From contig JAJFKY010000010.1 of the NCBI GenBank assembly GCA_021772975.1, positions 81,468 through 145,467 on the forward strand: a stretch of 64,000 nt of DNA, in the 5' to 3' direction. The translations under genes and the position numbers were made by a program. The number at the start of each line of letters is the position of its first letter. Position 1 is the stretch's first letter. The stretch is from Gammaproteobacteria bacterium. Its GTDB lineage: Bacteria; Pseudomonadota; Gammaproteobacteria; Xanthomonadales; Wenzhouxiangellaceae. Below the pieces are notes generated by a model that was given only the letters and a program-made list of their open reading frames with translations, had not been told where the DNA came from and searched no databases. Shown piece by piece: positions 5,449 to 53,999 of this stretch.

Positions 5449-6282
5449 TTAACGCTTGAGACTGTTCAGCAACGACATCAATTCGCTTTCCGAAGACCAG
5501 TCCCGGCGGCAGACGTAGCGGGGCAGAAGCCAGCGATTGCTGGCCGCCGTCACCGGTTCAGGCTCCGTGCTGAAAGCAGCCATCAGACCCGTTTGCTGTT
5601 GCCGGCCGGGTAAATAATCATACGCCAGAATATCCGGGCAATCGCCATAAGGATAGGCAAAATAACGGGCTGTACCGGCGCCATTCAGGCTAACCAGATA
5701 GGCCTGTGCCTGAGCGATCTGCCAGTCGCATTCCTGGCTATCCCGGAGCTGCTGAAATGATCCATAGTCACTTCCGTAACGCAATCTTTCAGCAACGCCT
5801 GGGTGTTTGTGATCCCAGGAGTGATTTTGGATGCTGAACAGACCTTCCGCCTGTGCGATTGGCCACCATTCATCACCCCACCAGCCCTGTCCAATCAGAC
5901 AGGTCTGGTCCAGACATTCGCGTGCCCGCGGGGAGACGATCACGAAACTGGTGACCAGTCCGGAAACGCCTGAATAAACCGGGTCCGAATGCACAAACTC
6001 ACGCAGGATACTGGCAAAGCTGCGCTGCATCCCGAACACCGGGTGCTCCAGGTCGTACCAGTCAAAATAACTGCCATCATCGAAGGTGATGGCCAGCGAG
6101 CGACGCGGCAGACTATCCATGCGCTGCCGGATGACCGCCTCAACCAGTTGCTTCAGCGTAATGATTGTCCAGCCGCTACGCCTGATTGAGTGCAGATCAC
6201 TGGCCAGCGCGAGATGATCGTTACTGGCATAATCCAGGCCGTCGACCTGGTTGCTGTGATAGGTCAATACCGGGACGCTCAC
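5449..6282 (-). CDS. NodB-type polysaccharide deacetylase family protein, probably cytoplasmic
   Basis: 277 residues. The NodB-homology signature LAITFDDGS lies at about residues 64-72, and the second metal motif NHSWDHKH (His-x3-His) is near residue 150. FAYPYGD near residue 210 matches the third conserved block. Such enzymes remove N- or O-acetyl groups from sugars with a divalent metal. No signal peptide or membrane helix is visible, unlike most peptidoglycan or chitin deacetylases. It is a clear paralogue of the protein at 45852-46676, sharing the opening VPxLxYHS, the TFDDGS core and a DE/DDWW patch. It ends the minus-strand hemF unit. Substrate unknown. Confidence 0.85.
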   Translation of the reverse strand: MSVPVLTYHSNQVDGLDYASNDHLALASDLHSIRRSGWTIITLKQLVEAVIRQRMDSLPRRSLAITFDDGSYFDWYDLEHPVFGMQRSFASILREFVHSDPVYSGVSGLVTSFVIVSPRARECLDQTCLIGQGWWGDEWWPIAQAEGLFSIQNHSWDHKHPGVAERLRYGSDYGSFQQLRDSQECDWQIAQAQAYLVSLNGAGTARYFAYPYGDCPDILAYDYLPGRQQQTGLMAAFSTEPEPVTAASNRWLLPRYVCRRDWSSESELMSLLNSLKR

Positions 6283-40675: not shown

Positions 40676-41398
40676 ATGGCAAAGATTCTTATTAACTCCA
40701 TTCCCAAAAGCGGCACCTACCGGGTTGCCGCTTTGCTGCGGCAGGCGGGGGTTCAAGCCAGCGGGCTGCACATCACCGAAGACAAGGTCTGGGACTACAC
40801 CGGCGTCGATGTAGCCACCGGACGGTCAGATCCTGATTCAACTTTGCAGGCCGGTATGACGCCTGCCCAGGCGCTGCATCAGGTCCCGGATAATCACTTA
40901 CTGGTCGGCCATTTCGGATTCAGCATTCAGCACAGCCGGTTATTGAAACCATTCACCACTATTTTTTTGATTCGCGATCTGCGCGAAGTGATTGTTTCCT
41001 GGTGCCGCTGGCAGGTATTCAGCGGTCAGAGCGAGGGTCTGGCTGAAATTGAAGATAAACAGCAAATGATTGTCAGTTTTCTTAACCTGAGCGCCCGACC
41101 CACCGCCCAGATCGTGCTGTCATTGTTACCCTGGTATTTTTATCTCCCCGCCAGGCATATCTTCCAGGTTGCGGATCTACATCAGATGGAAACGCTGGCA
41201 AGATTGTTTCAGGTCTGCGAACTAGCACTGACAGATTCCGAAATTGAACACATCCGGCAATCAGTGGATGCACAAAACACCCTGACCAAGGTGCCTGGCG
41301 GCACCTTGTTAGATGAATACTGGTCAGAACAGGCTGAACAGTTGTTTGTATCTCATAACCTGGCGCGCATCAATGCAATACTAGGCTATAAAGACTAG
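40676..41398 (+). CDS. Sulfotransferase family protein
   Basis: 240 residues. The 5'-phosphosulfate loop is INSIPKSGTYRVAALL at about residues 6-21, and the 3'-phosphate motif is FLIRDLREVIVSWCRW near residue 100. These are the PAPS-binding elements of cytosolic-type sulfotransferases. It has no signal peptide. It lies alone, divergent from the amidohydrolase with 65 bp between starts. It is not closely similar to the sulfotransferase at 44980 and its acceptor is unknown. Confidence 0.85.
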   Translation: MAKILINSIPKSGTYRVAALLRQAGVQASGLHITEDKVWDYTGVDVATGRSDPDSTLQAGMTPAQALHQVPDNHLLVGHFGFSIQHSRLLKPFTTIFLIRDLREVIVSWCRWQVFSGQSEGLAEIEDKQQMIVSFLNLSARPTAQIVLSLLPWYFYLPARHIFQVADLHQMETLARLFQVCELALTDSEIEHIRQSVDAQNTLTKVPGGTLLDEYWSEQAEQLFVSHNLARINAILGYKD

Positions 41399-41895: not shown

Positions 41896-43911
41896 TTAAC
41901 GCGTTAACAAAGGCGCAATAACCAGGCTGACAATCGCCATCACGTTGATCAGAATGTTCATCGCCGGGCCAGAGGTATCCTTGAATGGATCGCCCACGGT
42001 ATCACCAACCACTGCCGCCTTATGCACATCTGATCCCTTGCCTCCGTAGTTGCCTTTTTCAACAAACTTCTTGGCGTTGTCCCAGGCGCCACCGGCATTG
42101 GCCATGGTCAGCGCGAGCAACACACAGGAAATCAGCGCGCCAGCCAGCAGGCCGCCAAGAGCGTGTGCGCCTAACACGAAACCGACCACAATCGGTGAAA
42201 ATACCGCCAGCGCGCCGGGCAAAATCATCCGCTGCAAAGCTGCACGCGTGGCGATATCAATGCAACGGGCATTATCCGGTTTACCTGTGCCTTCCAGTAG
42301 ACCGGGGATTTCTTTGAACTGACGACGAATTTCATGAATCATTTCAAACGCGGCATCACCCACCGCACGCATGGTAATGGCGGATACCAGAAACGGGAAA
42401 ATACCGCCCAGGAACATCCCCATCAGCACATTCGGATTGCTGATATCCAGCGTGAATCCGGGAATATGAATGGCCACGGTTTTGATAAACGCCGCGATAA
42501 TCGCCAACGCCGCCAAACCCGCCGCACCAATCGCAAAACCTTTGCCGATCGCAGCCGTGGTATTGCCCACTTCATCCAGGCCATCGGTGATTTTACGGGT
42601 TTCCTCGCCCAGACCGGCCATTTCAGCAATCCCGCCGGCGTTATCCGCCACCGGACCATAGGCATCAATGGCCATGGTGATACCGACCGTAGCCAGCATA
42701 CCTACTGCACTGATACCAACACCGTATACACCGGCGCCTTCCGGCAATAGGAAACTGGTGATAAAAATGATCGCTGCGATAATCAACACCGGCCCAACCA
42801 CTGATTCCATACCCGTCGCCAGGCCGGAAATCATCACGGTTGCCGGGCCGGTCTGGCCGTCTTTGGCAATATCCCGAACCGGCTTACCGCCAGTGTAGTA
42901 TTCGGTAATCAGTCCGATGCCAATGCCACCAGCCGCGCCGGTAACCACACACCACCAGACATTTACGCTAACGCCCAGCGCGGAAACAATAAACCAGGCC
43001 GCGCCAATAAAGATCACCGCGGCACCAAATGTTCCAAAACGCAAGGCTGCCGCCGGTTCAGCACCAGAGGCCATGCGTACGATCAGAATGCCCAGAATCG
43101 AACACAGCAGGCCACCGGACGCCAGTGCCAAAGGTAAAAACATCAGCATCTGCTGCTGCCCCATCACCGTGGTGGCGGCAAAAGTACTGGCAATGGCGAT
43201 ACAGGCGATCATGGAGCCACAATAGGATTCGAAAATATCTGAACCCATACCCGCCACGTCACCCACATTGTCACCGACGTTATCGGCGATCACGCCCGGG
43301 TTACGCGGATCATCTTCGGGAATGCCGGCTTCAATTTTACCCACCAGATCAGCGCCCACATCAGCACTCTTGGTGAAGATGCCGCCGCCTACGCGTGAAA
43401 ACAGCGCTACCGTCGATGCGCCCATGCCAAAGCCATGAATGGCTTCCGCATGCTGTGGGTCACCGCCGAAAAAGTAGTACAGACCGCCCAGACCAAGCAG
43501 ACCCATCGCGGCTACCGTCAGGCCCATGATCGAACCGCCGTAGAACGCTACCGACAATGCTGCCGCTGGCCCTTCCGTGGCCGCCGCCGTAGTGGTACGC
43601 ACATTGGCCCGGGTAGCGGTATACATGCCGATATAACCGGCGATCGCTGAGCTGAGCGCACCGGTCACGAAGGCCGCAGCGGTATGCCAGCTAGGGAAAG
43701 CAAAGAACAGACCTATCGCCAGCACCAGTGCAAAGATGCCCAGAATAGAATATTCACGCTTCATGAAAACCATGGCGCCATCGTGAATCGCCTCAGCGAT
43801 TTCCGCCACCTTGCCCTCGCCGGCAGGATAACGTTTGACGACCAGGTATATGATAAACGCTGCCAGCAAACCGAATACGCCCAGTAGTGGCGGTATAAGT
43901 GATTGATTCAT
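41896..43911 (-). CDS. hppA: Membrane-bound proton/sodium-pumping pyrophosphatase, K+-dependent type
   Basis: 671 residues, about sixteen membrane segments. The catalytic loop is [19 protein letters not shown] followed by [27 protein letters not shown] carries Ala at the position that is Lys in K+-independent enzymes, indicating the K+-dependent class. It hydrolyses cytoplasmic PPi and pumps H+ or Na+ outward. The ion cannot be assigned from the motifs I can see: the membrane Glu in DIFESYCGS occurs in both Na+-pumping and K+-dependent H+-pumping enzymes. It is a single-gene unit with its own terminator. Confidence 0.95.
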
Positions 43912-43989
43912 AGTGTTTTCCGATAGTTCGATGAATACGGCTTCGCCGCCGTGTTATGCGTCGCGGCTGACGGAGTAAACCAACCGGCT

Positions 43990-44019
43990 ATTGTACTAGC
44001 AGGCCGCCTGGTTGAGCAA
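43990..44019 (-). promoter_or_regulatory. Candidate sigma-70 promoter for hppA
   Basis: On the minus strand TTGCTC (44014-44019) and TACAAT (43990-43995) are separated by 18 bp, 79 bp before the hppA start. The spacing and -10 are good, the -35 is fair. It begins right at the end of the acyltransferase gene. Confidence 0.35.
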
Positions 44020-44946
44020 TCAATTAGGTTGTTTATTACCGACCTGGGATCCCATATCCGCAAAAAACTGCCCGGCTACCGGCCACATTGACCAGCCGCC
44101 CGGTACTTCATCCAGGTTGCGCTGTAACCAGTCCTGCAAATCTGTATAAAGCTCGTCTGCTTGCCGGTAAGCGCCTTTGGATTCCAGCTCCAGAATACGC
44201 TGCCCGCTATCCGGGTCGATCATAACCCGGAAGAACAGGGTCTGGATCCGCAGCTTGATGACCATCTCCGCGAGCCCTGAACTGAGCTTGACCGGCTGAC
44301 CGAAAAGCCGTATTTGCCGACTGGGCTGGTTGGGCGCCGCCGGCACATCCGCCAGCACCAATACTGATCCCTCATGCTGGAAAGCCTTGATCACTTTGCG
44401 GGGATAACTGCCCGGGGTGTAACGTTTACCGGGGAACAGCTTCTCCAGGTGCCGGCGCCGCAGACTGACATACCAATAGCGCAGCAACTGCCCGGCGAAC
44501 TCCGCACGCTCCCGTTTGCGTAAAATATATACCACCTGGTGACCCTTTGCCCGTAACTGATGCAACACCGCAAAACCGGTGTTCCAGTGCGTTCCGATCA
44601 CCACAAAAGCGCCGGTCTCAGGAAACTCGCCCCGGCGCTTGATCTGGGCGCGCAGCTTCCAGGGCGCCAGCATGGATAGCCAGATATCGACATGATCCAG
44701 TAAAATGGTCAGACAGTGATCGGCCCGCCATTGAGCTTCATCGGCAACGCTGGTCAGCTTTTTACAGTTTTCCAAAGCCCGGGCTGACTGCCCGGCATAC
44801 CACGAGGTATGCCGACACAGTCTTTGCAGCAACGGCCAACTCCACCGCCAGGGAAGCACCACCACTATCATGGGTATGACAAACAAAGTCAGACAATCTT
44901 TGCTTTCGGTTCGCAATCTGTTCAGCGTGATGTTGATAAACCGCAT
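44020..44946 (-). CDS. LpxL-family lysophospholipid/lipid A acyltransferase-like protein
   Basis: 308 residues. An N-terminal hydrophobic helix (LTLFVIPMIVVVLPW) precedes the acyltransferase core. The first motif reads VVIGTHWNTGFAVL, with His but no Glu four residues on, so it departs from HxxxxD/E. LVLADVPAAPNQPSRQIRLF corresponds to the second substrate block. It diverges from the sulfotransferase gene with only 33 bp between starts, suggesting a shared control region with the modification cassette. It is distant from the homologue at 23771. Confidence 0.8.
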   Translation of the reverse strand: MRFINITLNRLRTESKDCLTLFVIPMIVVVLPWRWSWPLLQRLCRHTSWYAGQSARALENCKKLTSVADEAQWRADHCLTILLDHVDIWLSMLAPWKLRAQIKRRGEFPETGAFVVIGTHWNTGFAVLHQLRAKGHQVVYILRKRERAEFAGQLLRYWYVSLRRRHLEKLFPGKRYTPGSYPRKVIKAFQHEGSVLVLADVPAAPNQPSRQIRLFGQPVKLSSGLAEMVIKLRIQTLFFRVMIDPDSGQRILELESKGAYRQADELYTDLQDWLQRNLDEVPGGWSMWPVAGQFFADMGSQVGNKQPN

Positions 44947-44979
44947 CTCGTATCGTTCGTTGTTTCAATAAATCAGCCC

Positions 44980-45840
44980 ATGCCAGACCATCAATTGCCA
45001 GCCTTTTTCATTGTCGGCGCCCAGAAATGCGGCACCAGCTGGTTGCATCGGCAGTTGTCCTCGCACCCGCAAGTGTACCTGCCGGAAGACAAGGATCACG
45101 AATATTTTTCGTTGCTGCACCCCGATCCCGGACAGGCCCGGCAGGCATGGCAGCAGCGCTTTGCCGGCGCAGCGCCGGGACAACTGATCGGGGATGCCGC
45201 GGCCAGTCATTTTCTGACACCGCTGGACCAACCATGGCATATCCGCCCCCGGGATTACAATCCAGCACTATTGTCAGGCATGATTGAGGCGCTGGGCCAG
45301 GCATTAAAGATCATCGTACTGCTGCGCGATCCGGTAGCACGCGCCGTTTCGGCCTATCTGCATCATTACGCCATGGGTCAGCTGGATTTGAGCCACGGCA
45401 TTCTGGAGGCGCCGGATGAGTTGGGTATTGTTTCGATTGGCATGTACGGACAGCACCTGAGCCACTGGCTGGGGGTACTGGATGCCGGCAATATTTATCT
45501 GGAAACCCGTCCCATCAGCACATCAGCCGATGACATTCTGACCAGCATCTGCCGGTTTCTCGGGATTACGGACAAACACCCGTTCAGCGGCGTCACACAG
45601 CCGGTGTTTCCCGGCATCCAGCGGATTCGGAACGAGCAGGGTATCTGGGTCAAACACCAGCGCCTGCGGCAGGCGCTGCCGGACATCCAGCGCGCCGTAC
45701 CCAGCATGAGCATTGACGGTGAGGATTATGTGCGGCTGATTCATACCCAGGAACTTGCTAAGCTGCACGCTATCTTCGCTGAAGATCAGCAGTTATTGCA
45801 GCAATTGATCGCCACTAACCCTATCTACACTGGAACCTGA
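44980..45840 (+). CDS. Sulfotransferase family protein, first gene of the modification cassette
   Basis: 286 residues from the ATG at 44980 (MPDHQLPAFFIVGAQKCGTS). Further upstream in-frame codons antisense to the acyltransferase are not family-like. The PAPS 5' loop is GAQKCGTSWLHRQL at about 13-26 and the 3' motif is VLLRDPVARAVSAYLHH near residue 115, as in heparan/NodH-type sulfotransferases. SGVTQPVFPG-like C-terminal positions bear the acceptor region. The deacetylase start follows 11 bp downstream, so cotranscription is very likely. Confidence 0.9.
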   Translation: MPDHQLPAFFIVGAQKCGTSWLHRQLSSHPQVYLPEDKDHEYFSLLHPDPGQARQAWQQRFAGAAPGQLIGDAAASHFLTPLDQPWHIRPRDYNPALLSGMIEALGQALKIIVLLRDPVARAVSAYLHHYAMGQLDLSHGILEAPDELGIVSIGMYGQHLSHWLGVLDAGNIYLETRPISTSADDILTSICRFLGITDKHPFSGVTQPVFPGIQRIRNEQGIWVKHQRLRQALPDIQRAVPSMSIDGEDYVRLIHTQELAKLHAIFAEDQQLLQQLIATNPIYTGT

Positions 45841-45851
45841 GCGAACCCACC

Positions 45852-46676
45852 ATGCAAGTTCCGATTCTCTGCTATCACTCGCATATCATCACCAGTCCTG
45901 ACTATGCCGGCAACGGGCATCTGGCGCTGGCGCGCGATCTTGAACTGATCATGGAACACGGCAAAACCGTGGTTCCATTGCGTCAGGTTATCGACGCGCT
46001 TGGCCGCCAGGACAGGCACGCGCCGGATAACGCCGTGGTGATTACCTTTGATGATGGCTCCAAAGCGGATTTCATGCCGATCGAACATCCGCAGTTTGGC
46101 CCGCAGCCAGGGCTGTACCCGATTTTACAGCGGCATGAGCACCGCTATCCGCAAACGGTCGGTGCAGTACACGCCACCAGTTTCGTGATCGCCTGCCCAC
46201 AGGCACGCCAGCAAATGGATACCGCCTGTTTATTCGGACTGGACTGGATGAGTGATGACTGGTGGGCGCAGGCCGAAGCCAGCGGCACCCTGAGCATTGA
46301 ATCGCACAGCTGGAACCACAATAACGCGGTATGTGATGACGTGCCGGAGGGCACCGGTGACCAGTTTTATTCAATTGATACCTTTGCCCGGGCAGAGCGG
46401 CAGATTCGCGATGCAGCAGCCAGCATCGCCAGAATATCCGGACGCCGTCCGGACATTTTCGCTTATCCTTACGGGCATGTGAGCGATTATCTGGGACATG
46501 AGTATTTCCCGCGCTTTCAGCAGCACCACGGCATGCTGGCGGCACTGGCTACCCGGCCTGACTATGTAACTGAAAACACCTCACGCTGGCACCTGCCCCG
46601 GTTTGTGCATGGCGAACATTGGCGCGACCCGGAAACATTTATCCAGATTATCAATGGTCAGATGCAGAGCCTATGA
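45852..46676 (+). CDS. NodB-type polysaccharide deacetylase, cytoplasmic paralogue
   Basis: 274 residues. VVITFDDGSKAD near residue 62 and ESHSWNHNN near residue 155 carry the Asp and His-x3-His metal ligands; FAYPYGHVSDYL is the third block. It aligns along its whole length with the protein at 5449-6282 (same VPxLxYHS start, DDWW patch and R-W-x-LPRxV end). No signal peptide is present. The stop overlaps the oxygenase ATG (ATGA). In a cassette with a sulfotransferase it recalls the NodB/NodH pair of Nod-factor synthesis, but that is an analogy only. Confidence 0.88.
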   Translation: MQVPILCYHSHIITSPDYAGNGHLALARDLELIMEHGKTVVPLRQVIDALGRQDRHAPDNAVVITFDDGSKADFMPIEHPQFGPQPGLYPILQRHEHRYPQTVGAVHATSFVIACPQARQQMDTACLFGLDWMSDDWWAQAEASGTLSIESHSWNHNNAVCDDVPEGTGDQFYSIDTFARAERQIRDAAASIARISGRRPDIFAYPYGHVSDYLGHEYFPRFQQHHGMLAALATRPDYVTENTSRWHLPRFVHGEHWRDPETFIQIINGQMQSL

Positions 46677-47440
46677 AATTACCCAGACTGTTAACGGACA
46701 AGCAACGCTGCCTGCTGCGCATCGCTGAGCAGGATAGCTTCATTCCCCATGCCACACTCAATGCCGGGCTGGCGAAATGGCAACAGCAATATCAGAGCGC
46801 CCAACCCTTTCCCCATATCTGTCTGGATAATGTGTTTGATCGCGAACTGCTGCAGCACATCGCGCGTGACTTTCCCGACGCCAGCCACCAGCAGGGCTGG
46901 GATACCTACCGCAAAGAAAATGAATGGCTGAAAAATGCCACCGGACAGGACGCCCGGATTTCGTTTTTAATCCGGCATTTTCTATATGCCTTAAACTCCC
47001 GTTCGTTTCTGGCCTGGCTGGAGCAACTGACCGGTATTAAAGGCTTGATCCCGGATACCGAATTTATCGGCGGCGGTCTGCATGCCACACTGCCGGGAGG
47101 CAAACTGGGCATTCATGCTGACTTCAACAAGCATCAGCGCAATGGTCTGGATCGCCGCCTTAATCTGCTGCTGTACCTGAACCAGGGCTGGCAGGAACAA
47201 TGGGGCGGGGCACTGGAGCTATGGGACCAGGCATTAACCGGCTGCCAGCAAAAAATATTCCCGGTATTCAATCGGATGGTCATTTTTTCCACCACCGACT
47301 TCAGTTTCCATGGTCATCCACAGCCCTTAAACTGTCCGGATAACGTTATCCGCAAGTCCATTGCTTTATATTATTATTCCAATGGCCGTCCACAGTCGGA
47401 AGTCTCTGAATCACATTTGACTAATTATCAAACTATTTGA
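46673..47440 (+). CDS. 2OG-Fe(II) oxygenase, prolyl-4-hydroxylase-like
   Basis: 255 residues from the ATG at 46673, overlapping the deacetylase stop by 4 bases. The iron ligands are H148 and D150 in GIHADFNKH and the distal His at about 213-215 in SFHGHPQP. The Arg in VIRKSIALYYY should hold 2-oxoglutarate. LNLLLYLNQGWQEQWGGALELW is the usual core strand pair (given here as LLYLNQGW and WGGALELW). Such enzymes hydroxylate peptides, lipids or small molecules. It is probably cytosolic. Confidence 0.88.
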   Translation: MKLPRLLTDKQRCLLRIAEQDSFIPHATLNAGLAKWQQQYQSAQPFPHICLDNVFDRELLQHIARDFPDASHQQGWDTYRKENEWLKNATGQDARISFLIRHFLYALNSRSFLAWLEQLTGIKGLIPDTEFIGGGLHATLPGGKLGIHADFNKHQRNGLDRRLNLLLYLNQGWQEQWGGALELWDQALTGCQQKIFPVFNRMVIFSTTDFSFHGHPQPLNCPDNVIRKSIALYYYSNGRPQSEVSESHLTNYQTI

Positions 47441-47473
47441 ACATCATTCTAAAATTTACGCCGGATCATAATT

Positions 47474-48235
47474 ATGGATAACCAATCTCTGTGGGAAAAG
47501 ATACAGCAGCGTGACTGGTTTTATACCTTTCATCTGCCCTCCGGTGACAGCACCCGCTCTTATCTGCCCGCCGAAGCACAAGCCGTACATGCCACCCGGC
47601 TGCAAATGCTGCAAACCTGCCTCAAAGATTATTATGGTGAGTCACCCGCGGATATAACCGCCATTGATCTGGCCTGCCATCAAGGTTTTTTTTCGCATCA
47701 CCTGGCCGCCGCCGGACACCGCCGGGTTACCGGTATCGATGCCCGGCAGGAACACATTGATGACGCCCGCCTGATCTGCCGCGCGCTGCAGCACGACAAC
47801 ATTGAATTTGCCCAGCGTGACGTGTTTTCGCTGTCACCCGAGCAGGACGGCCAGTTCGATACGGTACTGATGTTTGGTTTGCTCTATCACCTGGAAAACC
47901 CGGTTGGAGCGCTGCGGGTAGCCAAATCGCTGTGCAAAAAAGTCTGTCTGGTCGAAACCCAGGTAGGACCGCATATCTCCGGTCAGCTTGACTGGGGTCA
48001 TTATGAATTTGTGAAGCCCATGATGGGCAGTTTCACGGTGATTGACGAAAGCCACGAAACGCATGGCCCGGAGATGAGTACACTGGGTATTTGTCTGGCG
48101 CCTTCAACACAAACGCTGATCTGGATTATGCAGAAAATCGGCTTTGACCGGGTTGAACTGCTAACGCCTCCGGAAGGCGCTTATGAACAGATTCGCTTCG
48201 GCAAAAGAGTAATGGTGGCAGGCTATATTGATTAA
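47474..48235 (+). CDS. Class I SAM-dependent methyltransferase
   Basis: 253 residues. The SAM-binding motif I is ITAIDLACHQGFFSHHLA near residue 60, with acidic motif II VTGIDARQEHIDDA. VLMFGLLYHLENPVGALR is motif IV/V as in DUF1698-type and TylF-like enzymes. It lies 33 bp after the oxygenase on the same strand and ends the cassette. Acceptor unknown; an O-methyl addition to a group made by the oxygenase or left by the deacetylase is one possibility. Confidence 0.88.
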   Translation: MDNQSLWEKIQQRDWFYTFHLPSGDSTRSYLPAEAQAVHATRLQMLQTCLKDYYGESPADITAIDLACHQGFFSHHLAAAGHRRVTGIDARQEHIDDARLICRALQHDNIEFAQRDVFSLSPEQDGQFDTVLMFGLLYHLENPVGALRVAKSLCKKVCLVETQVGPHISGQLDWGHYEFVKPMMGSFTVIDESHETHGPEMSTLGICLAPSTQTLIWIMQKIGFDRVELLTPPEGAYEQIRFGKRVMVAGYID

Positions 48236-48304
48236 CTTCCGGCGATTAACCGCAGGCAATCTTACCAGCTCCCTGAACATGCCGAACTTTAGCGGAGTCG
48301 GGTG

Positions 48305-48832
48305 ATGCATAGCCGTGTACATAACCCGGTACCCGGCCAGTGCCCGGAGTGTCTGGTGTTTCTGGAAGTCAATCAAGCACGCGAGTTGATTGGTGAGCTG
48401 TTTGAACGCAAGTTCAACACGCCCTTCAGGGTTGATTACGGGCATCACCAGATAGCCTTCTATAAACGCCACGAGCACCATTACGTACCACTCGGCTATC
48501 TGAACATGCTGCCCTATAAACAGGTTATCCTGGTGGGCGGCGGCATGACGGATGGTCGTGCGTTTAAGCATGTTGAGCCACAGCACGCCAGCCAGATCAG
48601 TGCCGCCGGCGGGGTTTTATATTGGGGCCTGAAACACGCTTTTTCCTATTATGCCGATCAATGTCTGGCATTCTTCGGCTATGTTGATGATGAGCGCGCG
48701 CATGCAGTCGATCTGAAAGCCGGCTTTGCAGATACCGAGCACGATAAGCTGGTGGTTAATTTTCACAAGCCCTTGAGCACTGTTAAGCAACGCAAATTAA
48801 TCAGGCTGGTGCATCAGCTTGGTCCGTTTTAA
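48305..48832 (+). CDS. Hypothetical protein, possibly GNAT-like
   Basis: 175 residues from the ATG at 48305 (GTG at 48302 is an alternative). I do not recognise a characterised family. Segments HHYVPLGYLNML, KQVILVGGGMTDGR and CLAFFGYVDDERAHAVDLKA alternate strands and helices and recall acyltransferase-like hypothetical proteins in which a GN/GDxR loop precedes a helix. No signal peptide. It follows the methyltransferase by 69 bp on the same strand and could extend the cassette. It converges on prmA. Confidence 0.65.
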   Translation: MHSRVHNPVPGQCPECLVFLEVNQARELIGELFERKFNTPFRVDYGHHQIAFYKRHEHHYVPLGYLNMLPYKQVILVGGGMTDGRAFKHVEPQHASQISAAGGVLYWGLKHAFSYYADQCLAFFGYVDDERAHAVDLKAGFADTEHDKLVVNFHKPLSTVKQRKLIRLVHQLGPF

Positions 48833-48929
48833 CCCCTCATCGCCATCAGCGATAAATTCAAGCCTGCGATCTGTTGCTGCGTTTTAACCAGGCGCGGTCC
48901 TGCTCCGGGCACTATTGAAAGCCCTTGAA

Positions 48930-49805
48930 TTAATCTTTTCTCAGCACCAGCCTGGCCCAGTCCTCGCAGCTGGCGTGTCCCTCCAGTCTGGCCAGTTTAC
49001 TGTAAGCGATTTTCAATTCGGTTAACTGAGTATTCAAAACGCCTGAGAGCACGATATATCCAGATGGCCTGGTAAGCCGGCAAAACTCCAGTGACAGTTC
49101 GATTAACGGCCCAGCCAGAATATTGGCCAGCAGCACATCCACCGGCTCGCACCTGGCGCTGTCGGGATCACTGATAATCAGCTGACCGGCCACTCCATTA
49201 AGTCGCGCATTTTCACCGGTCGCCTGCAGTGCCTGGGGGTCATGATCGATGGCATATACCGTGCCGGCACCTTTTAGAGCACAGGCAATCGCCAGAATAC
49301 CCGAGCCGCAACCATAATCAATCACCGTTTTACCGGCCAACTCTGTTTGGTCTATCCATTCCAGGCATAAGCGCGTGGTTGGATGGGTTCCGGAACCAAA
49401 TGCCAGCCCCGGATCCAGTCGGATAATGGTGTGTCCGTCGCCGACAGGCGGTTCAATATGTGATGGGTAAATCCACAGACGCTGACCAAACTGCATGGGC
49501 TGATACTGATCCATCCAGACAGTTTCCCATTGCTGGTCATCCAGTTCCGCACTGCTCACGGCCGCTGGAGAAATGCCCGCGGCGGTCAGCTTCAGGAGGA
49601 TATCAGTTGGCTCGATTTCACCCGGAAACAATCCGGTTACAATAACCCGGTCCCAGATCGGATGGGTGTTGGGATCGGGCTCCAGAACTGGCTGGTCGGC
49701 CGCATCCGTGAAGGTAACCGATAGCGCCCCCAGCGCCAGCAGCTGGGTTTCAATGGCGGCACTGTCCGCCCCGTCCGTGCTGACATTAACCTGCAACCAG
49801 GCCAC
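48930..49805 (-). CDS. prmA: Ribosomal protein L11 methyltransferase
   Basis: 291 residues. The N-terminal substrate-recognition domain starts MAWLQVNVSTDGADSAAIET. The SAM domain has GLAFGSGTHPTTRLCLEWID and VIDYGCGSGILAIAC, followed by LLANILAGPL, all standard for PrmA. It trimethylates L11 on the free protein. It is the last gene of the aroQ-accB-accC-prmA block, 8 bp after accC. Confidence 0.97.
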   Translation of the reverse strand: MAWLQVNVSTDGADSAAIETQLLALGALSVTFTDAADQPVLEPDPNTHPIWDRVIVTGLFPGEIEPTDILLKLTAAGISPAAVSSAELDDQQWETVWMDQYQPMQFGQRLWIYPSHIEPPVGDGHTIIRLDPGLAFGSGTHPTTRLCLEWIDQTELAGKTVIDYGCGSGILAIACALKGAGTVYAIDHDPQALQATGENARLNGVAGQLIISDPDSARCEPVDVLLANILAGPLIELSLEFCRLTRPSGYIVLSGVLNTQLTELKIAYSKLARLEGHASCEDWARLVLRKD

Positions 49806-52338: not shown

Positions 52339-53088
52339 ATGTCTAAGTATTCCCGCGACCGTCCGCTGCGTATGGCGGTATGGTCAGGTCCGCGCAATAT
52401 CTCTACCGCGATGCTGCGATCCTGGGGTAATCGCAGTGATACGGCGATTGTTGATGAACCTTTTTATGCGCATTATCTGGCGGAAACCGGGCTTCAGCAT
52501 CCCGGCTATGCCGAAGTGCTGGCGCATCAGGAAAACGATTGGGAGCAGGTTAAAAAAACCCTGCTCGGGCCGGTCCCGGACAATCAGCCGATTTTCTATC
52601 AAAAGCATATGGCGCATCATCTGCTGCCGCACATGCAGGGCGATTGGCTGCACCGGTTACAGCATGTATTCCTGATCCGACGGCCAGCTGCCATGCTGCT
52701 GTCACTGGCTCAGGTACTGTCCCAGCCGGCACTGCCTGATACCGGTCTGCCCCAGCAGCTGGATTTGTTTGAACAGATCAAGCAGCATACCGGCATGACG
52801 CCCCTGGTGGTCGATTCGGTGGATTTGCTGCGCCAGCCGGAGCCCATGCTGCGAGCCTGGTGCGCGCACATGGAGGTTGAGTTCACAGCGGCCATGCTCA
52901 ACTGGCCACCCGGACCACGTGACACTGACGGTATCTGGGCCAAACACTGGTACGCCAGTGTGGAAAAATCGACCGGCTTTATGCCGTATAAAGCACGGCC
53001 GGCAGAGCTTCCCGACACACTGCTGGAGCTGCAGCTGGCCTGCGACCCCTATTATCACACCCTGTACGAACAGCGTTTGCAGGTTTAG
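52339..53088 (+). CDS. Sulfotransferase-like P-loop protein paired with aminotransferase IV
   Basis: 249 residues. The opening MAVWSGPRNISTAMLRSWGN contains a degenerate PAPS-type loop (GPRNIST) and is followed by TAIVDEPFYAHYL, a hallmark of a sulfotransferase-like family. HVFLIRRPAAMLLSLAQV is the 3'-phosphate region. Plants have proteins that fuse this domain to a branched-chain aminotransferase-like domain, the same pairing as this gene and the next (14 bp downstream). Biochemistry of the family is unknown; PAPS use is not certain. Confidence 0.82.
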   Translation: MSKYSRDRPLRMAVWSGPRNISTAMLRSWGNRSDTAIVDEPFYAHYLAETGLQHPGYAEVLAHQENDWEQVKKTLLGPVPDNQPIFYQKHMAHHLLPHMQGDWLHRLQHVFLIRRPAAMLLSLAQVLSQPALPDTGLPQQLDLFEQIKQHTGMTPLVVDSVDLLRQPEPMLRAWCAHMEVEFTAAMLNWPPGPRDTDGIWAKHWYASVEKSTGFMPYKARPAELPDTLLELQLACDPYYHTLYEQRLQV

Positions 53089-53102: not shown

Positions 53103-53999
53103 ATGCTGCAATCTTTTGATTCAAAAAATACCGATCTGCTGGTCAATATTAACGGACAGCTGGTGCATCGCGACCAGGCGGCCATCAGTCCATTTGACAG
53201 TGCAGTGCAGGGGGGCGATGCGGTCTGGGAAGGGCTGCGGTTGTATCAGGGAAGGATTTTCGCTTTACAGCAGCATCTGGCCCGCTTGCACAGCTCCGCC
53301 AAGGCACTGGCTTTTGATGATATCCCCAGCACCGCGAAAATCACCGCGGAAATCAAACGCACTCTGGCCGCCAACAACATGACTGATGGCGTACACATTC
53401 GCCTGACCTTGTCACGCGGTGTCAAAGTCACCTCCGGTATGGACCCGCGTTTGAATCAAACAGGGCCCACTCTGATTATCCTGGCGGAACATAAGCCACC
53501 CGTGTATGACAAATCCGGCTTGAGCCTGATCACCAGTAGTATCCGGCGTTTCCCGCCAGACTGCCTTGATCCAAAAATCCATCACGCCAATCTGCTGCAA
53601 TCCATTCTGGCTAAAATCGAAGCCAATCACGCCGGAGCGGATGACGCGCTGATGCTTGATTATCAGGGCTTTATCGCGGAAACTAACGCCACCCACGTAT
53701 TTATCGTACATGCCGGCACCGTCTATACTCCACATACCCATGCATGCCCGGAAGGCGTTACCCGTACCACGGTATTGCGCCTGTGCCGGGAACATCAGAT
53801 CGAACATCAGATCAAGAATCTTTCCCTGACTGAGTTATACCGCTCCGACGAAGTATTCTGCACCGGCACCATGGGTGAAATTGTACCGATAGCCAACGTC
53901 GACGGCAGACCCATAGGCGACGGTAACTACCCCATGACCAGCCGAATGGGCGAGCTCTACAGCCAATGCACCGCCAGTGAGGGCGAGCGCGTAGTGTAA
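53103..53999 (+). CDS. Class IV (BCAT/D-amino acid type) aminotransferase
   Basis: 298 residues, PLP fold type IV. ISPFDSAVQGGDAVWEGLRL is the N-terminal signature, and the cofactor region includes GFIAETNATHVFIV and CTGTMGEIVPI. The block that should hold the PLP lysine reads DPKIHHANLLQSILAKIEAN, where the Lys is two residues earlier relative to the NLL anchor than in typical D-amino acid transaminases. This matches a distinct subgroup rather than IlvE itself. It is cotranscribed with the upstream sulfotransferase-like gene. Substrate unknown. Confidence 0.85.
   Translation: MLQSFDSKNTDLLVNINGQLVHRDQAAISPFDSAVQGGDAVWEGLRLYQGRIFALQQHLARLHSSAKALAFDDIPSTAKITAEIKRTLAANNMTDGVHIRLTLSRGVKVTSGMDPRLNQTGPTLIILAEHKPPVYDKSGLSLITSSIRRFPPDCLDPKIHHANLLQSILAKIEANHAGADDALMLDYQGFIAETNATHVFIVHAGTVYTPHTHACPEGVTRTTVLRLCREHQIEHQIKNLSLTELYRSDEVFCTGTMGEIVPIANVDGRPIGDGNYPMTSRMGELYSQCTASEGERVV

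Follow-up and report, generated by a model that had tools for sequence, protein, structure and literature searches.

A cassette of six putative tailoring genes around a NodB-like deacetylase in a gammaproteobacterium, and the recurrence of its gene partners across the order Lysobacterales

A cassette of six adjoining genes lies in a stretch of 64,000 nucleotides, here called the window, from a gammaproteobacterium of the family Wenzhouxiangellaceae (assembly GCA_021772975.1, contig JAJFKY010000010.1, positions 81,468 to 145,467 of the forward strand). The predicted products are an LpxL-like acyltransferase, a sulfotransferase, a NodB-like deacetylase, a 2-oxoglutarate (2OG)-Fe(II) oxygenase, an S-adenosylmethionine (SAM)-dependent methyltransferase and a member of a family without a name (open reading frame 6 [ORF6]). 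Five of the six families recur as neighbours elsewhere in the order. We give about even weight to the proposal that all six enzymes modify a single N-acetylated molecule, probably a lipid-linked glycan or an amino-sugar lipid on the cytoplasmic side of the inner membrane. The genes of the cassette are as follows.

44020..44946, minus strand: LpxL-like acyltransferase of predicted LpxM/PatA fold; 308 aa; hydrophobic N-terminal helix (by eye)
44980..45840, plus strand: sulfotransferase; 286 aa; Pfam and PDB profile matches; start set by homologue alignment
45852..46676, plus strand: NodB-like (CE4-like) deacetylase; 274 aa; PF01522 and motifs
46673..47440, plus strand: 2OG-Fe(II) oxygenase; 255 aa; PF13640; ATG start inside an ATGA overlap with the NodB-like gene
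47474..48235, plus strand: SAM-dependent methyltransferase; 253 aa; PF13847
48305..48832, plus strand: ORF6; 175 aa (176 if the GTG at 48302 is the start); predicted GNAT fold

The LpxL-like gene diverges from the sulfotransferase gene across 33 bp. The plus-strand genes are then separated by 11 bp (sulfotransferase to NodB), a 4-base ATGA overlap (NodB to 2OG), 33 bp (2OG to methyltransferase) and 69 bp (methyltransferase to ORF6). An initial annotation, made from the sequence alone, had described the first five genes, and its positions, gaps and overlap were all reproduced when coordinates and gaps were remeasured; its gene set was incomplete, however, in that a sixth plus-strand gene, ORF6, lies within the same 44020..48832 range. 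To one side of the cassette lies a gene whose translation reads as H+-pyrophosphatase-like (41896-43911), and to the other side one that reads as PrmA-like (48930-49805). Reading of the N termini, with no predictor run, revealed no signal peptides. Four of the six proteins have Pfam matches above cut-off.

Co-location was scored in 299 genomes of the order Lysobacterales (Xanthomonadales), two genes being near each other if they lay within 2.5 kb on one contig; chance estimates assume a genome size of 3.4 Mb for all, and the binomial figures ignore shared ancestry. Rows dropped before counting were those below 195 bits for NodB (those listed scored 61 bits or less), 56 bits for the sulfotransferase, 248 bits for the methyltransferase and 119 bits for the oxygenase, together with one ORF6 fragment; all LpxL-like rows were counted save 18-bit fragments. 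Copies of the sulfotransferase subfamily lie near NodB in 18 of 21 cases (0.06 expected) and near NodB or LpxL in 20 of 21. ORF6 is near NodB in 59 of 81 copies (0.17 expected), and 74 of the 76 genomes with ORF6 also carry NodB. For the LpxL-like family the count is 20 of 82 (0.14 expected), with 59 of the 82 copies in NodB-bearing genomes. Pairs with NodB are spread over 11 genera for the sulfotransferase and over 12 for the LpxL-like family. The neighbourhood thus exceeds chance, and the initial annotation, which had staked the idea of a cassette on the genes being neighbours in related genomes, was right in this respect.

Clustering with NodB is not a general property of sulfotransferases, since none of the 21 next weaker matches is near NodB. 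Only 9 of those 21 are in genomes with a counted NodB, and the control is therefore weaker than its size implies. The oxygenase subfamily, defined by matches of at least 180 bits, comprises 24 copies, 7 of which are near NodB or LpxL, compared with none of 80 weaker paralogues, 50 of which are in genomes with NodB or LpxL. A view based on 41 genomes, in which the 2OG gene was a recruit of this genus only, was overturned by this larger search. A set of 2OG, NodB and ORF6 genes also occurs in two genomes of another family, with a four-base 2OG/NodB overlap in one of them.

Partner choice by NodB follows a pattern. Among 131 NodB copies, 56 are near ORF6, 36 are near LpxL or the sulfotransferase and 41 are near none of the four partners. 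The expected number of copies near both ORF6 and either LpxL or the sulfotransferase is 15.4, yet only 2 of the 131 are of this kind (p 2.5e-8 by Fisher's test, which takes no account of ancestry): the cassette of the window and that of genome G054. In a NodB tree of 118 proteins, 99 of them labelled (quick LG+G4, SH-aLRT support only), the partner label changes 9 times, with at least 7 changes forced by starred branches, while the shuffled mean is 28. Changes that are fewer than in shuffled trees yet repeated indicate ancestral clustering of partners together with repeated exchange. Most simply read, ORF6 on the one hand and LpxL or the sulfotransferase on the other would be alternative finishers of the NodB reaction. 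One outlying record, from Gallionella (L114 2364-3425), is a NodB homologue with an apparent N-terminal signal sequence (by reading) on a long branch of the tree.

Fused and contiguous genes point in the same direction. In the best 80 of 141 relatives of NodB, for which loci were collected (some ending at contig ends), ORF6 is present in 57 loci, the LpxL-like family in 6 and the sulfotransferase subfamily in 6. Records of Dokdonella, Tahibacter, Rudaea, Wenzhouxiangella and Marinicella are among these loci. Locus L086/L152 carries an LpxL-NodB fusion in one 569-aa frame, followed by a Sulfotransfer_3 gene with an 11-base overlap; L120 has LpxL, sulfotransferase and NodB in a run on one strand; and NodB is fused to ORF6 in L128, L146 and L155, three mutually close kin. 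The cassette of the window is the only locus found here that holds all partner types.

At the matching spot in the genus sibling G001, the sole further genome of the genus sampled here, LpxL is 65% identical to that of the cassette, NodB 68%, 2OG 80%, the methyltransferase 84% and the sulfotransferase 43%; a second NodB is present there, the sulfotransferase is shifted downstream and no ORF6 match was found in the G001 genome. The same spot holds sulfotransferase, NodB, LpxL, sulfotransferase and NodB in G004 and sulfotransferase plus NodB in G007. The place between the pyrophosphatase-like and PrmA-like genes (41896-49805) accordingly holds differing subsets of tailoring genes in G000, G001, G004 and G007. 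A mobile or recently imported island was considered and rejected, as the window has no tRNA, the G+C content of the cassette is like that of its surroundings and the spot is shared by sibling genomes.

Membership of the cassette is least well supported for the methyltransferase. The initial annotation had proposed one shared molecule for the cassette enzymes, and this is partly supported: well for the LpxL-like, NodB-like, sulfotransferase and ORF6 families, by co-location, fusions and partner choice; supported for the 2OG oxygenase; and for the methyltransferase at the level of the genus only. We regard it as a serious possibility, though one held with less than even confidence, that LpxL, NodB, sulfotransferase, ORF6 and 2OG form one pathway in which the methyltransferase has no part, being carried along while serving a conserved function elsewhere. 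Its 75 close copies in the 299 genomes are widespread in the order, and 73 of them are away from NodB; the 2 near NodB are both within the genus. Two of the 75 are near LpxL: the first belongs to the genus, and the second, in G073, lies 2.2 kb from a fragment of an LpxL-like gene where the contig ends. In 3 of 14 other loci fetched (L234-L236) the gene sits between tgt-like and queA-like genes (by eye). Against this, the methyltransferase directly follows 2OG in both genus members (the sibling being the 1 of the 80 NodB loci with window-type 2OG and methyltransferase genes), and, among the 23 of 24 copies of the oxygenase subfamily whose surroundings were fetched, those in five genomes have a methyltransferase of another family no more than 0.6 kb away. 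These five are as follows.

G026, G037, G153, G268 and G071, with the other methyltransferase family next to 2OG at:
L255 5164-6123
L256 8172-9113
L258 7198-8139
L025 8059-8991
L026 6052-7059

This other family is also found 0.7 kb from NodB in L260. Genome-level co-occurrence of LpxL and the cassette methyltransferase family (44/79 versus 31/220) is uncorrected for ancestry and is not used as evidence. A two-part protein of ∼410 aa was seen beside ORF6-NodB in L131 (8219-9460) and L140 (10992-12218) and near the oxygenase in L258 (8401-9657); the idea that the 413-aa neighbour in L131 and L140 has an O-antigen exporter domain was dropped, as the only Pfam match there is a methyltransferase domain, which leaves the N-terminal part unassigned.

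The catalytic motifs of these families mark active enzymes, and they are kept to differing degrees in the cassette. The NodB-like protein matches PF01522 with 44.5 bits (cut-off 23.1), and motifs 1 and 2 of CE4 are intact (TFDDG at residue 65 and HSWNH at 152). PMC6415152 defines the CE4/NodB homology domain by motif 1 TFDD, motif 2 H(S/T)xxH and motif 3 RxPY. Motif 3 reads AYPY at residues 204-207 of the cassette protein, with loss of the Arg; the Ala is nearly invariant in a 12-row alignment, in which motifs 4 and 5 were not recognised by eye. Profile matches in the PDB are to PgaB and other polysaccharide deacetylases and are partial (first ∼85 positions), and an NCBIfam match over residues 23-252 is below cut-off.

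The sulfotransferase is above cut-off for both PF00685 (44.3 bits) and PF13469 (43.3 bits) and has the motifs GAQKCGTSW (position 13) and RDPVARAVSAY (position 116), which we take to be those of the 3'-phosphoadenosine 5'-phosphosulfate (PAPS) site. Its PDB profile matches are headed by 3rnl, for which no substrate is stated, with heparan sulfate 3-O-sulfotransferases and NDST1 below. One adenosine 5'-phosphosulfate (APS) kinase match above cut-off is present in the genome and would supply the PAPS that the enzyme needs. The oxygenase matches PF13640 (68.4 bits), has the HxD motif (HAD) and a distal His (by eye) and shows weak PDB likeness to prolyl hydroxylases. The methyltransferase match to PF13847 (56.2 bits) is above cut-off.

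Neither of the two putative acyltransferases matched a Pfam or NCBIfam model at E 0.01, and both are placed by predicted structure. The predicted LpxL-like structure matches LpxM and PatA, and 4 of the 32 relatives that were aligned give weak Lip_A_acyltrans matches (E 1.4e-4 at best); both results support kinship to the LpxL/LpxM/PatA acyltransferases. In place of the HX4[DE] motif the protein has GTHWNTGF, in which His120 is kept and the acid is replaced by Phe125. Asp200, invariant in 32 of 32 alignment rows, may be equivalent to the distal acid paired with His (PatA E200, LpxM D192). ORF6 likewise had no match to a GNAT model, and the ten families listed when 62 of its relatives were compared include no such model; its predicted structure is nevertheless a GNAT fold, with solved relatives that include AAC(2'), tied with other GNATs. 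Among the 120 relatives listed of 179, those with a name are called hypothetical protein, except for one UniRef entry, GNAT.

In the proposed mechanism, the NodB-like enzyme would take off the N-acetyl group and free an amine, and this amine or a nearby hydroxyl would be re-capped with a fatty acyl group (LpxL-like), an acyl group (ORF6) or sulfate (sulfotransferase). The oxygenase may put on a hydroxyl and the methyltransferase may methylate. Deacetylation combined with acyl, sulfate, hydroxyl and methyl additions would yield a heavily decorated product. The folds are predictions, and we infer each reaction, the sequence of the steps, what they act on and where in the cell they take place. 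The sugar and membrane parts of the model draw on solved relatives (PgaB in part, heparan sulfate sulfotransferases, LpxM/PatA and AAC(2')) and on the LpxL-like membrane helix. Like the initial annotation, we hypothesize a new compound as the product: a sulfated lipid, glycolipid or small molecule.

Alternatively, the target of the genes could be a glycan polymer of the cell surface (the repeat unit of an O-antigen, a capsule or an exopolysaccharide), with the acyltransferase acylating a lipid-linked repeat unit. We consider this unlikely, at perhaps half the weight of remodelling of a single amino-sugar lipid or lipid-linked glycan: the structurally characterized profile relatives of NodB are polysaccharide deacetylases, including PgaB, and one NodB copy, in a Nitrotoga record, has a TPR-repeat glycosyltransferase of family 41 ∼1.8 kb away, but the cassette contains no glycosyltransferase, polymerase or export gene, and many neighbours are housekeeping-like in the NodB-ORF6 loci, part of the 80, that were read by eye. 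Still less probable is tailoring of a small metabolite or a sugar-free amino lipid, with the CE4-like enzyme a general amidase. The lost Arg of motif 3, the unrecognised motifs 4 and 5 and the likeness of the oxygenase to prolyl hydroxylases fit such a role, whereas enzymes that act on sugars are among the solved relatives of ORF6, the sulfotransferase and the LpxL-like protein, although for ORF6 and the sulfotransferase other relatives rank equal or higher. That a permissive pyrophosphatase-like/PrmA-like spot has merely gathered unrelated tailoring genes would fit the varying gene sets there, but is very improbable given the matching pairs at other places in other families, the fusions and the repeated partner switches.

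Cassettes that deacetylate and then decorate are a known kind, and the present combination is a variant. The initial annotation had pointed to Nod-factor tailoring, a resemblance that holds in logic and fails in membership. NodB deacetylates, NodA acylates and NodS methylates the amino sugar, according to PMC5080398. Remodelling by the cassette, like Nod-factor synthesis (NodB, NodA, NodS and NodH), would join deacetylation of an amino sugar to acylation, methylation and sulfation. Unlike the Nod system, the cassette has an LpxL-like acyltransferase and a 2OG oxygenase, and its proteins have no match to NodA, NodC or the NodB-equivalog model; NodA was also absent from the Pfam matches of the 62 ORF6 relatives at E 0.1. 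As the initial annotation had noted, there is no NodC chitin synthase among the cassette proteins or, by eye, among genes 41896-49805, the rest of the genome not having been searched. Heparan sulfate NDST likewise unites a deacetylase and a sulfotransferase in one pathway, and NDST1 and the 3-O-sulfotransferases are profile matches of the cassette sulfotransferase; the cassette genes, by contrast, are separate and bacterial, sulfation may be on N or on O, and the LpxL-like and GNAT-like partners have no NDST counterpart. The acyltransferase differs from LpxM and PatA in lacking the HX4[DE] acid and in being paired or fused with a deacetylase. The CE4-like domain is shared with PgaB and polysaccharide deacetylases (as profile relatives over those first positions), but no secretion or polymer system accompanies the cassette NodB-like gene, and its partners are others. 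In Actinoplanes missouriensis, one of the wps clusters for sulfated exopolysaccharide combines sulfotransferases with a methyltransferase, and another carries a polysaccharide deacetylase; unlike the cassette, these clusters have glycosyltransferases and Wzx/Wzy, and no LpxL-like, 2OG or ORF6-type gene is named in the part of the source available (PMC13390465). No prior description of the gene combination, including Nod-type combinations, was found in the open-licence literature (including the accessible part of PMC4619719).

Further sulfotransferase and NodB-like genes lie elsewhere in the window. A second sulfotransferase (40676-41398, plus strand; PF00685, 24.1 bits, cut-off 22) is upstream of the pyrophosphatase-like gene, and the genus sibling has a close relative of it in the corresponding position (L088 896-1618). 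A Sulfotransfer_5 protein (52339-53088, plus strand; 174 bits) adjoins an aminotransferase-like gene (53103-53999, plus strand; by eye), a pair also present in G001 and G004, so that three sulfotransferases lie inside 13 kb. A NodB-like paralogue (5449..6282, minus strand), 39% identical to the cassette NodB, has neighbours that resemble TatC and HemF (by eye) and is kept in the genus sibling; no cassette partners lie within 2.5 kb of it.

A broader reading, which we offer tentatively and as less likely than joint remodelling of one molecule by the six enzymes, is that Lysobacterales and some betaproteobacteria possess a plug-in kit built round a cytoplasmic CE4-like amidase with swappable caps, and that its product is a new class of sulfated, acylated amino-sugar lipids. 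The interchangeable caps would be a new GNAT family, a one-dyad LpxM/PatA-type acyltransferase and a heparan-sulfate-type sulfotransferase, making the kit a counterpart of NDST and of NodB/NodA. The model is directly testable in cultured relatives, e.g., Tahibacter, Dokdonella and Marinicella. If it is true, a widespread kit without a name produces sulfated and acylated compounds in bacteria from soil, sludge and the sea, the hypothetical-protein family ORF6 gains a predicted GNAT fold and a partner, and these bacteria would offer a natural comparison of N-acylation and sulfation after one shared deacetylation step.

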